DNA of 64,000 nucleotides. Origin: Acidimicrobiaceae bacterium (lineage in GTDB: Bacteria; Actinomycetota; Acidimicrobiia; Acidimicrobiales; RAAP-2). The notes beneath the pieces are model-generated. The model was not told the DNA's origin. It did not search any database and worked only from the letters and a program-made list of their open reading frames with translations. Every line of letters starts with the position of its first letter. Position 1 is the stretch's first letter. Made by a program: the position numbers and the translations under genes. The stretch covers positions 1 to 64,000 of the forward strand of contig JAOBWI010000017.1 in the NCBI GenBank assembly GCA_025463285.1, written 5' to 3'. This document shows positions 31,987-38,415 of the stretch, piece after piece.

Positions 31987-32862
31987 CTAGAGAACGTTGG
32001 GCAGCCGTTGAGCTAGTTCACTCACCGACCAGCGGTCGTTCTTTTCGAGGGCCTCGGTCATGGTCCAGTTGTGGAACTTGCGCACCGTTCCGCCCTGGAC
32101 GAAGAAGACGTCGCCGGTGGCCGCACAGTTCTCCATGGCCAACGTCGCCACCAGAGGCGAGATATTCGCCGGATCCCACACGTCAAAGACGGCGGGATCC
32201 GGCGGCTTCACCACGTAGTCCTTGAGGCCCGGCGTGGACTCGGTCATGCGGGTGCGCGCGGCCGGCGCAATCGCGTTCACGCGCACGCCGTAGCGTCCGA
32301 GTTCATCGGCGGCGATGAGAGTGAAGGCGGCGATGCCCGCTTTGGCGGCCCCGTAGTTGGACTGACCCGCGTTACCGAGCAGTCCCGAGGTCGAGGACGT
32401 ATTAATGATGGAGGCCTTGACGACTTTGCCGACCTTGGCCTGGTCGCGCCAGTACGCGGCCGCGTGTCGAGTGGGAACAAAGTGGCCCTTCAGATGAACG
32501 GAGATCACGGCGTCCCAATCCTCTTCGGAGAGATTGACGATGGTCCGGTCGCGCACGATGCCCGCGTTGTTGACCAGTACGTGCAGGTCGCCAAAGTGCT
32601 CGACGGCGCTGCGCACCAAGCGTTCGCCGCCCTCCCAGGTGGCCACGTTGTCGTGATTGGCCAGGGCCTCACCGCCAGAGGCCTTGATCTCCGCCACGAC
32701 GTCGTCGGCCGGCGTCGATTGGCCCGGGGAGCCATCGAGTCCTCCGCCCAAGTCATTGACCACCACTTTGGCCCCCTCGGCCGCGAACAGCAGGGCGTGC
32801 TCACGACCAATTCCCCGACCGGCTCCGGTGATAATGGCGACGCGGCCCTCGAGTGCTCCCAT
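31987..32862 (-). CDS. SDR-family dehydrogenase (hydroxyacyl-CoA/MFE-2-like)
   Basis: A 291-aa short-chain dehydrogenase. ATG 32862 has GGAGG 5 nt upstream; the frame is open to a TTG at 32874. Motifs are ITGAGRGIGREHALLFA (NAD(P) binding), VVVNDLGGG, LVNNAGIVRD, and the catalytic Ser and YGAAK of SNYGAAKAGIAAFT. The EHALLFAAEGAKVVVNDLGG stretch resembles the dehydrogenase part of multifunctional beta-oxidation enzymes, so a 3-hydroxyacyl-CoA substrate is likely. It is the last gene of a run starting at 35051. Confidence 0.88.
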   Translation of the reverse strand: MGALEGRVAIITGAGRGIGREHALLFAAEGAKVVVNDLGGGLDGSPGQSTPADDVVAEIKASGGEALANHDNVATWEGGERLVRSAVEHFGDLHVLVNNAGIVRDRTIVNLSEEDWDAVISVHLKGHFVPTRHAAAYWRDQAKVGKVVKASIINTSSTSGLLGNAGQSNYGAAKAGIAAFTLIAADELGRYGVRVNAIAPAARTRMTESTPGLKDYVVKPPDPAVFDVWDPANISPLVATLAMENCAATGDVFFVQGGTVRKFHNWTMTEALEKNDRWSVSELAQRLPNVL

Positions 32863-32916
32863 GGAGGCCTCCAAAATGTTGTGGTCAGTCGATTGTAACG
32901 AGCCGAGGCCTCTCGC

Positions 32917-33213
32917 CTAGGAGCGGTGACGTCGCCAAAAGTACGGGGGACGCGCGTGAGCGTGATAGTGATCGGGGATGTTACGCATGCGCTCGTCAAT
33001 ACTCCACGGCGTCGAGGGAAACTCATCGTTCGCTACGGCGCCGAGGACCTCGTACAGGTGGCGCTTCACCTCGGGCGGTGGCGAGGCGCCGTGCTCTCGC
33101 CACACCACCATTGGCACCAGACAGATCTCGCAGTCCCCCACCCAGCAGAGCTCATCCTCGAAGTAGCGCTTGGTGACTTCGGCCGCTTCACAGAGGTCGC
33201 AGTCCTCACTCAT
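32917..33213 (-). CDS. Cys/His-rich conserved hypothetical protein (HIT-like)
   Basis: A 98-aa protein with two CxxC pairs at the N-terminus (CDLCEAAEVT, WVGDCEICLVPMVVW) and a His cluster near the end (RNIPDHYHAHARP). The pattern suggests a metal site, probably Zn, and the HxHxH stretch recalls the HIT superfamily, but the usual HIT catalytic spacing is not clear. I recall unnamed actinobacterial relatives. It overlaps the end of the kinase-like gene by 4 nt, so the two are co-translated and may act together. Confidence 0.7.
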   Translation of the reverse strand: MSEDCDLCEAAEVTKRYFEDELCWVGDCEICLVPMVVWREHGASPPPEVKRHLYEVLGAVANDEFPSTPWSIDERMRNIPDHYHAHARPPYFWRRHRS

Positions 33214-35051
33214 CGAACCGTCAAGACGACCGTTGATTTATAGGCGACCATGGTGCCCGCGCCGGGGTTCTCCGAGACCACGCTCGTCCACGTCGTAGTT
33301 CCCGCCCCGGGGCCAGTCGTAGAGAAGTACAGCACGGCTTTGTGAAAGGCGGCCACCGTCTCGGCGTAGGTATCGCCCACCACGTTCGGTACCGCGCGCA
33401 GTCCCTGACCCGCCAGAGTCGTGGTGGTGGTGGTGGTCGTCGGGGCCGACGGGTGAGGACCTTTCGAGATGTAGAGGATCACCGACGCGCCCCGTGGAAC
33501 GGCGAGGGGGTTAGCGGTCGTGTGGTAGAGGACACGGGCCACGTCATTGAGCGCCACGGTGGACGAGTAGATCTCGTCGTTAGCGGGACACGTCGCGGTG
33601 ATGCCCAGCGCCTTGAGAGCCGTCGTCGCGCCGGCGCACGTGCTACGCACGAGCGTCGTGGGGAGAGTGACCAGCTTCGGCCCCAATGACACGTCCACCG
33701 TGAGTGACGCGCCGGACGCGGCGCTGGCCCCGGCCGCGGGTGACTGACGGACGATGTCGCCCTGGGCGACGGTGTTCGACTCCACGTCCGCCACGTTCAA
33801 GATGAAGCCATCGGACTTTACCGCCGCCGTCGCCTGCTTCAGGGTGAGACCCGTCAAGTTCGGCACCGTGTGGCTCGTGGAGAACACTCCGGCCTTCCAC
33901 GCGGCACCGACGCCGATCGCCAGAACAACCAGCACCAACGCGGCGATGAGAAAACCGGTGCGGCGGCGCGGTGTACGTGGTAGGTCGTACTGACCACGCT
34001 CGAACCGGGGCGTTCGCCCCAGTGGACTGATCGGGGCTCTCGCCACGGATTCCCCGGAACCGCCGGCGCTCGCGGGGCCGAGTCGCGAGACGCGGGGAAA
34101 GCTTCCCGTCCCAGATCCCGAGGGCGAGTTGACAACCTGGTCGGGCGACGGTGCCTGAAAGCCGATGGAGCTGCGCGGCTCGGGACGCTCGAACTGAGAG
34201 AGCAGAGGCGTTTCGCGGGCCCCGCCGCGAAGGACCAACGGGTCGTTATCGCCGACGAGCCCGCCCAGACGGGCGGAGAACTGTTCTGAGTCGAGGCGTA
34301 GTCGCGGGTCCGGCAGCGCCGCTTGAGCGAGCACCATGTCAAGTGTTCCCAACTCCAGACGCACGGGCAACGGGGCGCCCAGTCGCGCGCGAAGAATCGC
34401 CTCGGGGGTCGCGCCTTCGTAGGCCGCGCTACCGGTCACCGCTTCAAAGAGGATGAGCGCGAGTGCGTACACGTCGCTCTCGGCTCCCGGTGGTTCGCCG
34501 ATGGCTTGTTCCGGCGAGAGGTAGCGCGCGTCGTCGAGGGACATGCGCTCGCGAAACCCCGCGGCCAGACCGGACAGCGCGACGTCACTCACTCGCACCC
34601 GCCCTTCCTCGTCGAAGAGGAGTTTGGACGGCGAGAGTGAGCCCAGGATGAATCCGTGTTGGTGCACGTAAGCCAGCGCGTCGGCGACGTCACGGCCGAG
34701 TCGCGCCCCCTCGTCCACGCTGAGGCGGCGCCCGGTGCGTAAGAGGTCCTCTAGGGATCCACCGGAAAGGTACTCACTGATCATGAAGATCGCCCCGTGT
34801 TCCTGGCCCCCGTCAAAGACGCGGGCCAGGTGCGAGTGACTTAGCTTTGACGCGCGAATGATTCGATCGCGAAAGGCCCGACGGACCTCTTCGTGAGCGG
34901 CCAGATCGGGAAGGAGAACCTTGACCGCGACGCGACGCTGGAGTGACAGGTCGTCGGCGAGATAGACCTCGGCGGTGCGCCCCACCCCCAGAAGTTCAAT
35001 GATTCGGTAGCGGCCGGCGAGCGTGTAGTCGGGTGCAAAAGTAGGCGCCAT
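33210..35051 (-). CDS. PASTA-domain Ser/Thr kinase homologue with degenerate active site (pseudokinase)
   Basis: A 613-aa PknB-like membrane protein: kinase-like domain at 10-270, a Pro/Ser-rich linker to about 365, one transmembrane helix (366-387), then three PASTA-like outer domains (about 394-457, 459-532, 551-613) separated by a Thr-rich strip. Structural kinase features remain: LGVGRTAEVYLA loop, Lys44 in VAVK, YLSPEQ and ESDVYALALILFEAVTG. The catalytic loop does not: where kinases have HRDxKxxN this protein has LGSLSPSK (136-143), and DFG is DVA (156-158). It should bind peptidoglycan or muropeptides outside and lack, or have poor, phosphotransfer inside; a scaffold role is inference. 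Confidence 0.85.
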   Translation of the reverse strand: MAPTFAPDYTLAGRYRIIELLGVGRTAEVYLADDLSLQRRVAVKVLLPDLAAHEEVRRAFRDRIIRASKLSHSHLARVFDGGQEHGAIFMISEYLSGGSLEDLLRTGRRLSVDEGARLGRDVADALAYVHQHGFILGSLSPSKLLFDEEGRVRVSDVALSGLAAGFRERMSLDDARYLSPEQAIGEPPGAESDVYALALILFEAVTGSAAYEGATPEAILRARLGAPLPVRLELGTLDMVLAQAALPDPRLRLDSEQFSARLGGLVGDNDPLVLRGGARETPLLSQFERPEPRSSIGFQAPSPDQVVNSPSGSGTGSFPRVSRLGPASAGGSGESVARAPISPLGRTPRFERGQYDLPRTPRRRTGFLIAALVLVVLAIGVGAAWKAGVFSTSHTVPNLTGLTLKQATAAVKSDGFILNVADVESNTVAQGDIVRQSPAAGASAASGASLTVDVSLGPKLVTLPTTLVRSTCAGATTALKALGITATCPANDEIYSSTVALNDVARVLYHTTANPLAVPRGASVILYISKGPHPSAPTTTTTTTTLAGQGLRAVPNVVGDTYAETVAAFHKAVLYFSTTGPGAGTTTWTSVVSENPGAGTMVAYKSTVVLTVR

Positions 35052-35088: not shown

Positions 35089-35326
35089 GTGGGTCAGTTT
35101 CGACCCTCTGCGGGCTACGCCCGCTGGGCTAACTACCGGCCCGAAGGATGTTGCGCGCGGCGTTATAGAGCTCTCGTTGGTGGTGGAGCTGTTGGGTGAG
35201 CGCGATGGTCTGTTTGACGGTCGGGTGCAAGCGATAGCGATAGGTGCGACAATGGGTCACTACTCCCAAAGGTCGCTGACTTGCGGGCCATGCGTGAGAC
35301 TTCCGAGTCGAGTCAAACTGACCCAC
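35089..35326. mobile_element. Short TnpB-derived element with 12-bp terminal inverted repeats
   Basis: GTGGGTCAGTTT at 35089-35100 and its exact complement AAACTGACCCAC at 35315-35326 bound 238 bp. AATGTAG occurs on both sides (35078-35084 and 35332-35338), like a target duplication placed 4-5 nt outside the repeats. Inside are a collapsed TnpB reading frame and a perfect GCGGGC-TAC-GCCCGC hairpin (35110-35124). Removing the element and one AATGTAG would leave ligA ending at the same residue with TGA, so the insertion seems to have replaced the ligA stop with TAG. No intact transposase, so any movement would need one elsewhere. Confidence 0.6.
35129..35326 (-). pseudogene. Internally deleted TnpB/OrfB remnant
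   Basis: The 65-codon frame starts inside the right terminal repeat. Its middle, TYRYRLHPTVKQTIALTQQL followed by HHQRELYNAA, matches the N-terminal helix-turn-helix of IS605-family OrfB/TnpB. Its last residues, NAARNILRAGS, match the conserved C-terminal end of TnpB next to the third RuvC motif. The several hundred residues normally between these are missing, with the join at the shared NAA. This is what an internal deletion would leave. It cannot be an active nuclease. Confidence 0.6.
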
Positions 35327-35329
35327 CGC

Positions 35330-38415
<3,086 letters not shown>

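Follow-up and report, generated by a model that had tools for sequence, protein, structure and literature searches.

A gene on the minus strand of a 64,000-nucleotide stretch of DNA from an Acidimicrobiaceae bacterium (assembly GCA_025463285.1, contig JAOBWI010000017.1, positions 1 to 64,000; the whole stretch is called the window below) is predicted to encode a receptor pseudokinase of bacterial PASTA-kinase origin. In Gram-positive bacteria PASTA kinases are major switches that sense the wall, and the way in which a bound ectodomain activates the kinase is described as debated (PMC3601408). The window protein combines PASTA units and a probable membrane helix with a kinase domain that has lost most of its catalytic residues, and in a group of actinobacteria of soil and peat it probably takes part in cell-wall signalling as a partner without enzymatic activity. 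Its nine named relatives are all Acidimicrobiaceae or Acidimicrobiales assembled from metagenomes; the labels of eight read fen, palsa or bog. The gene and its parts are as follows.

33210..35051, minus strand: PASTA-receptor pseudokinase, 613 amino acids, ATG at 35051, TGA stop at 33210-33212
34266..35015, minus strand: pseudokinase domain, residues 13-262, from Pfam and alignment, with a model for the N-lobe only
33957..34265, minus strand: juxtamembrane linker, residues 263-365, with a short IGFxxPS motif at 296-302
33888..33956, minus strand: hydrophobic helix, residues about 366-388, probably membrane-spanning, from sequence and an AlphaFold helix at 363-389
33687..33869, minus strand: PASTA unit 1, residues 395-455, from Pfam and fold
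33456..33680, minus strand: middle PASTA-like unit, residues about 458-532, from a fold match, with conserved Cys472 and Cys488
33216..33392, minus strand: C-terminal PASTA unit, residues about 554-612, from Pfam

An original prediction, made from the letters of the window alone, had drawn this reading frame and described a kept kinase fold with three PASTA-like sensors. The frame was recovered as drawn. Pfam Pkinase matched residues 15-217 (E 1.6e-24), the closest solved structures by sequence were StkP (E 2.4e-30) and PknB (E 7.5e-30), and the modelled N-lobe superposed on PknB with Z 15.8 and rmsd 1.4 over 91 residues. Three sensors proved a fair count: Pfam placed two PASTA stretches above cut-off (395-455 and about 554-612), and the middle unit, which had no Pfam match, was recognised by fold alone, since model residues 393-531 superposed on PASTA 1-2 of mycobacterial PknB (5e10; Z 12.2, rmsd 4.5, 132 aligned). 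A kinase domain and PASTA repeats are therefore found in one membrane protein, the membrane helix being taken from sequence and model. Structure matches were drawn from the N-lobe and ectodomain of a full-length AlphaFold model, and statements on the active site are independent of any model; an AlphaFold run on the kinase domain by itself was discarded (pLDDT 38).

The catalytic motifs of the window protein were altered as the original prediction had read them. The ATP-anchoring Lys was kept (K44, in VAVK), HRDxKxxN was replaced by LGSLSPSK with loss of the HRD Arg, the HRD Asp (now Ser), the HRDxK Lys and the Asn, and DFG read DVA with its Asp (D156) kept. Beyond that earlier reading, the alpha-C Glu was replaced by R63, the GT motif of the activation segment by D173-D174, and four residues of that segment were missing. 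The APE Glu (E181) and the F-helix Asp (D193) were retained. The residue set of an active kinase (HRD Asp, HRDxK Lys, Asn, DFG and alpha-C Glu) is incomplete in this protein. A pseudokinase has been defined as a kinase fold without one or more of the beta3 Lys, HRD Asp and DFG Asp (PMC12599244); by that definition the window protein qualifies, as do the 63 of 70 genus sequences that lack the HRD Asp.

Conservation of the altered loop in relatives, proposed earlier as a check, was assessed in an alignment of 117 sequences: 72 distinct orthologues from the window's genus (g1), 23 from 17 other genera of the family, one from g29, two from g30 and 19 from 19 other families. Altogether 24 other families of the order were sampled; five were left out because their best match had no ligA in the fetched stretch, and those matches had intact motifs. 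Rows L057, L070 and L076-L079 were excluded from the orthologues on this ground, their motifs being intact. Fourteen duplicate loci were dropped, and genus g41 of the family lies outside the sample. At E 1e-45 or better, a match was present in 161 of 172 genomes of the family and in 92 of 99 of the genus.

With gapped rows set aside, the loss was genus-wide. On the ATP-binding side K44 was kept in 56/68 rows and the alpha-C Glu (E63) in 8/69. In the catalytic loop H136 was present in 50/70, D138 in 7/70 and K140 in 1/70, and neither R137 nor N143 was found in any of 70; ten different residues occupied position 138. The DFG Asp, D156, was retained in 67/70, the Phe in 3/70 and the Gly in 10/70, and most g1 rows beyond the early branches read SD[VI]ALxG in this region. 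The two loop glycines were present in about 90% of rows. K44 and D156 occurred together in 56/68 rows, and the ATP Lys was lost in 12/68. The Lys, Glu, HRD, HRDxK Lys, Asn and DFG were intact in every one of the 42 rows that belong to none of g1, g29 and g30 (23 from other genera of the family and 19 from other families). The activation segment, D156-E181, spanned 30 residues in 41 of these 42 rows and 29 in the remaining one; in g1 it spanned 26 in 61 of 72, 25 in seven and 27 in two, with two gapped fragments. A sensor-bearing receptor without a normal phosphotransfer site, as originally proposed, thus appears to be conserved as such through the genus.

The dead kinase domain is under purifying selection. 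In nine close g1 pairs its dN/dS was 0.07-0.22 (kinase-region dS 0.18-0.37), and that of the ectodomain was 0.08-0.44, above the kinase-domain value in all nine; since six of the nine come from one species quartet, they amount to four independent groups. The nine were drawn from the 14 lowest-dS genus pairs listed, five with L073, a contig-edge fragment (dN/dS 0.86-1.25), being excluded. The 14 intact-kinase pairs listed gave dN/dS 0.05-0.52 at dS 0.49-0.62. All values are Nei-Gojobori estimates, which are rough on GC-rich genes. Within g1, mean identity fell from 0.62 in the N-lobe and 0.59 in the C-lobe to 0.45-0.53 across the ectodomain units and 0.32 in the linker. New residues were near-fixed in the main clade of g1 (59 rows): R57, I64, G81, F89, G137, G161 and L162, in place of the L, A, W, Y, R, R and A of intact rows. 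The original prediction had treated relatives with intact HRD and DFG motifs as the sign of a local defect. Such relatives do exist, in other genera and families, but the altered motifs run through the genus, and purifying selection acts on the domain; the loss is therefore a lineage trait.

Outside the kinase domain, the linker motif [ILVMF]GFx(1-2)P[ST] was found in 56/72 genus rows and in the three g29/g30 rows; among intact kinases it occurred in 3/23 family rows and 0/18 other-family rows. A separate observation concerns the ectodomain, where Cys472 and Cys488 (window 33588-33638) were present in 72/72 genus rows, 3/3 g29/g30 rows and 22/23 intact family relatives; Cys is not the usual residue at these positions in the order's other families. 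They perhaps form a family-specific disulphide.

Gene order offered a marker for descent.

35330..37357, minus strand: ligA, syntenic marker upstream of the kinase gene, named by eye from sequence

The order nifS-mnmA-ligA-kinase-98-aa protein-SDR-hydrolase-gatC-gatA (SDR, short-chain dehydrogenase/reductase) recurred in the genus, with some genes missing or moved; gene names in this comparison, ligA included, were assigned by eye. A ligA was found in the fetched stretch for 19/19 other-family rows and 19/23 other-genus rows, not always immediately adjoining the kinase. In the kinase-domain tree the orthologues stood apart from seven other kinases, including two of the window's own genome (support 94, not starred), and g1 and g29/g30 each formed one group (96 and 99, both starred). 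Because motifs are intact across other genera and families at the ligA-linked orthologues, the window pseudokinase descends from a ligA-linked PASTA kinase with intact motifs. As a side observation, one genome of genus g26 (G065) carried two motif-intact PASTA kinases of this type, one (L113) with ligA and the other (L112) with the 98-aa protein and no ligA in the fetched stretch.

The course of the loss was followed on a tree of neighbouring genes from which the kinase was excluded. Genus g44 (L110, intact kinase) was sister to g1 with support 100/100, followed by g31/32 (intact; 97/92) and then g29 with g30 (100/100). Seven genes were offered under a 60% filling rule; with gatA, gatC and nifS in under half of the rows, the tree rests on ligA, mnmA, SDR and the 98-aa protein, and in it the outgroup row L053 falls inside the family. 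The g29 sequence read HGDLKPSN and DFG; among the tabulated motif residues it had lost the HRD Arg alone, and its activation segment was also without GT. Those of g30 read HGA[VI]KP[GA]N, VAVR and DFS. Early branches of g1 (L071, L072 and L049) kept DFG or DLG and had lost other residues. On this tree the catalytic Asp was lost in two changes by parsimony. Since g29, the sister of g30, retains Asp, Lys and Asn, independent loss rests on parsimony; a forced g1+g29+g30 clade was not rejected (p-AU 0.095), and a LigA tree alone left these clades unresolved. The partial motif loss in g29/g30 would then run parallel to that in g1, as far as parsimony on this tree can tell.

We also examined the face through which PknB dimerises. 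PknB residues R10, L33 and D76 correspond to R14, L37 and D80 of the window protein, which were present in 68/68, 65/68 and 69/69 g1 rows. The residues were mapped by eye on a PknB alignment; the mutants L33D and D76A are named in PDB titles, and R10 is presumably also an N-lobe interface residue. At the level of residues, the interface of a PknB-type N-lobe dimer thus appears to be retained.

The window's own genome encodes three kinase-family genes: the pseudokinase, a 636-aa PASTA kinase, PknB, and a kinase of roughly 500 aa in which a PASTA search found nothing. Both other kinases have intact motifs. The question raised earlier, whether an active PASTA kinase exists elsewhere in the genome, is thus answered by one with intact motifs, PknB, which is predicted from sequence to be active. 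This PknB has all three dimer residues, and its gene forms a row with those for an FhaA-like protein, an FHA protein and a PP2C phosphatase. A match to it at E 1e-60 or better was found in 97/99 genus genomes, and VAxK, the alpha-C Glu, HRDxKPxN and DFG were intact in 30/30 best matches, one per genome. Two or three kinase matches were found in 81/99 genus genomes, so that the pseudokinase makes up a large share of a small kinome. The same genome also encodes a 302-aa protein (L150:3900-4808, contig C78) with two PASTA units and a double-psi beta-barrel end (DPBB_1), between genes resembling tatD and ksgA by eye. The tatD-ksgA interval is the place of the resuscitation-promoting factor in many actinobacteria, and the PASTA units of this protein resemble, by eye, the C-terminal unit of the pseudokinase.

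Our first, still tentative choice is a dead PASTA co-receptor that acts by docking, most likely through N-lobe pairing with PknB. N-lobe dimerisation allosterically activates PknB (PMC3601408), and this, together with the co-occurrence of PknB, places the co-receptor ahead of other explanations. On the branch to this Acidimicrobiales genus, a ligA-linked PASTA receptor Ser/Thr kinase would have lost the ability to transfer phosphate, and the gene would have been kept for a receptor pseudokinase. Its ectodomain most likely still binds a peptidoglycan-derived ligand, and the dead domain would pair back to back, via the N-lobe dimer surface, with the active PknB of the same cell, and would either activate PknB allosterically or keep it at sites of growth. 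Signalling through PknB, FHA proteins and the phosphatase would in this way be tuned to the cell wall. More broadly, and with considerable reserve, we propose a system of two receptors, in which an active PASTA kinase is paired with a dead PASTA receptor that senses peptidoglycan and activates the kinase allosterically. The dead receptor would have arisen by loss of catalysis in an orthologue intact in sister genera, with partial parallel loss in g29/g30. The dead and active receptor-kinase pairs of animals would be the counterpart of this system.

Several observations weigh against a docking co-receptor. R14, L37 and D80 are equally fixed in intact kinases, so that their retention is shown and no new role; as equivalent residues also serve the MviN homodimer, PknB is not singled out as the partner. 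Intact relatives in the family had mean identities of 0.73 (N-lobe) and 0.68 (C-lobe), g1 being slightly lower, and over residues 130-183 g1 stood at 0.57 against 0.81. This lower conservation of the catalytic stretch and the kinase region fits some relaxation of selection. Preferential loss of catalytic residues was considered and rejected, as 43/69 non-catalytic conserved sites and 4/12 catalytic sites were retained at 80% or more, a non-significant contrast (Fisher p 0.11). ATP binding or weak activity may persist, given Asp138 in 7/70 rows and K44 with D156 in 56/68. No copy was seen in seven of the 99 genus genomes, two of which are at least 90% complete. The full-length AlphaFold model, built on a 10-row alignment, had a mean pLDDT of 55 with the C-lobe unresolved. 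We infer that the domain is inactive, that the ectodomain binds ligand and that PknB is the partner, as well as the direction of the effect.

A near second choice is a homodimeric, MviN-like scaffold, which is plausible if less likely than not: the protein would pair with itself, its linker would be phosphorylated by PknB, and FHA proteins would be recruited to PASTA-marked sites. This explanation stands where it does because the MviN domain forms a back-to-back dimer via N-lobe residues L750 and D793 (PMC12599244), and its PknB-phosphorylated tail recruits FhaA (PMC12599244; PMC3601408). The matching Leu and Asp are kept in the window protein, and an FhaA-like and a second FHA protein are encoded with PknB; however, the sole conserved linker motif found looks hydrophobic. 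Should the ectodomain alone matter, the protein would be a PASTA anchor, decoy or wall-sensing tether with the kinase fold as a structural remnant. The invariant Cys472/Cys488 pair and the reduced conservation of the catalytic stretch agree with this, but in g1 it is the kinase region, not the ectodomain, that shows the higher identity and, in every close pair, the lower dN/dS; we consider this explanation unlikely.

It is similarly improbable that the protein carries out weak phosphotransfer or other ATP-dependent chemistry at a rearranged site. SelO and SidJ, which act without canonical kinase chemistry (PMC12599244), set a precedent, and the joint retention of K44, D156 and the loop glycines would suit it; Asn143, the HRDxK Lys, mostly the alpha-C Glu and the GT motif are nevertheless lost together, and the ATP Lys itself is gone in 12 of 68 rows. 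Slow decay of the gene under relaxed selection, with no function of its own, is the least credible explanation. It would account for the ten residues at position 138 and the seven genomes without a copy, but no internal stop was found in any listed genus match to the pseudokinase, synteny is conserved, dN/dS is well under 1, and new residues such as R57, I64, G81 and G161 are near-fixed in the main clade.

With sensor, membrane helix and dimer face kept and catalytic residues dropped, the dead co-receptor would be a natural separation-of-function variant, and what such a receptor has retained points to what matters besides catalysis. At one fixed genomic place the relatives form a graded series, from intact motifs in g44 and g31/32, via a missing HRD Arg in g29 and a missing catalytic Asp in g30, to near-complete loss in g1, which lets the birth of a pseudokinase be studied against living active relatives.

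Two genes follow the pseudokinase gene downstream.

32917..33213, minus strand: 98-aa Cys/His protein, no Pfam family, start overlapping the pseudokinase stop (ATGA, 33210-33213)
31987..32874, minus strand: SDR, syntenic neighbour, with its own ribosome-binding site

The original prediction had the pseudokinase translationally coupled to both. The ATGA overlap fits coupling to the 98-aa gene. Coupling to the SDR gene is unsupported, as the latter starts 42 nt (TTG) or 54 nt (ATG) past the stop of the 98-aa protein and has its own GGAGG before the ATG. The Cys/His pattern of the 98-aa protein (CxLCEAA, CExC, PMVVW, HAHAR) was invariant in nine aligned sequences, the one in the window and those of eight named relatives. 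The protein adjoined 20/23 intact kinases of the family, which makes the pairing older than the motif loss. Its profile matched in 31/246 genomes across the phylum, 26 of them outside the family; in five outside-family loci (L154, L157-L160) no kinase was seen by eye among the frames listed over 2.4-3.3 kb. By motif alone its HxHxHxR stretch would suggest a HIT hydrolase, an assignment that was rejected, with no Pfam match at E 10 and an unconvincing best PDB match (E 0.15).

Between ligA and the pseudokinase gene, at 35089-35326 (minus strand), lies a remnant of roughly 240 bases of an IS605-type element. Its ends are exact inverted repeats of 12 bases, GTGGGTCAGTTT, and it contains the beginning of a TnpB-like reading frame (Pfam HTH_OrfB_IS605, E 1.5e-5). 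Elsewhere in the genome, parts of it matched at eight more places, two of which adjoin each other. The ligA-kinase gap is far shorter in the genus loci compared, about 30-70 bases in the named relatives, so that the insert may uncouple the pseudokinase gene from ligA in this strain.

Among known systems, PknB, StkP and PrkC (NF033483) share with the window protein a cytosolic Hanks-type kinase fold, a linker, a single membrane helix and a PASTA ectodomain. The window protein differs in lacking the HRD Arg and Asp, the Asn, the alpha-C Glu and GT, and scored 245.1 bits against the NCBIfam PASTA-kinase equivalog, below the cut-off of 450. Its gene sits at ligA, unlike pknB in the fha-phosphatase-pknB cluster.

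Seven bacterial pseudokinase families are listed in PMC12599244, and the window protein is set apart from ActPs1, ActPs2, ActPs3, GLW, CP1 and DLHK by their descriptions there. ActPs1, ActPs2, GLW, CP1, DYD and DLHK resemble it in having degraded catalytic motifs in bacterial Ser/Thr kinase folds. All three catalytic residues are substituted in ActPs1, whereas the window protein keeps two of three. ActPs2 has beta3 Lys to Arg, HRD Asp to Asn and a mostly deleted DFG, in contrast to VAVK, LGS and DVA here. In the GLW family HRD is replaced by GLW, unlike LGS, and the DLHK family is without membrane regions. CP1 likewise has no membrane region and is fused to COG3899, unlike a protein with a PASTA ectodomain and a hydrophobic helix, whose sole Pfam families are kinase and PASTA. 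The accessible text of PMC12599244 describes no PASTA repeats in these families, PASTA occurring once, in a reference title; likewise, no description of a PASTA-bearing pseudokinase was found in the literature searched, which took in few subscription papers.

A similar case is CD2148 of Clostridioides difficile, a membrane protein of Hanks type that is present in addition to the PASTA kinase PrkC and modulates phosphorylation by it; the authors of the study could not exclude that it is a pseudokinase (PMC9674922). Unlike the window protein, CD2148 has no PASTA repeats, and Hanks signature motifs are reported in its kinase domain (PMC9674922).

The original prediction had likened the window protein to the pseudokinase part of MviN (ActPs3). 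Both are membrane-bound actinobacterial pseudokinases, MviN being one of cell-wall biology, and the N-lobe dimer Leu and Asp are kept. ActPs3 is defined by completely degraded catalytic motifs and a hallmark activation-loop deletion (PMC12599244); the window protein has the beta3 Lys and DFG Asp, and its activation segment is 4 residues shorter. The MviN domain binds neither ATP nor Mg (PMC12599244), and its printed motifs, VALT, Lsidhpsr and Y--, are without the Lys and DFG Asp that the window protein keeps. The window domain is moreover joined to PASTA units and derives from ligA-linked, motif-intact kinases, where synteny and the kinase tree place it. With MviN compared by printed motifs, kinship is unsupported and MviN is best regarded as an analogue; that the window pseudokinase works in the manner of MviN is plausible.

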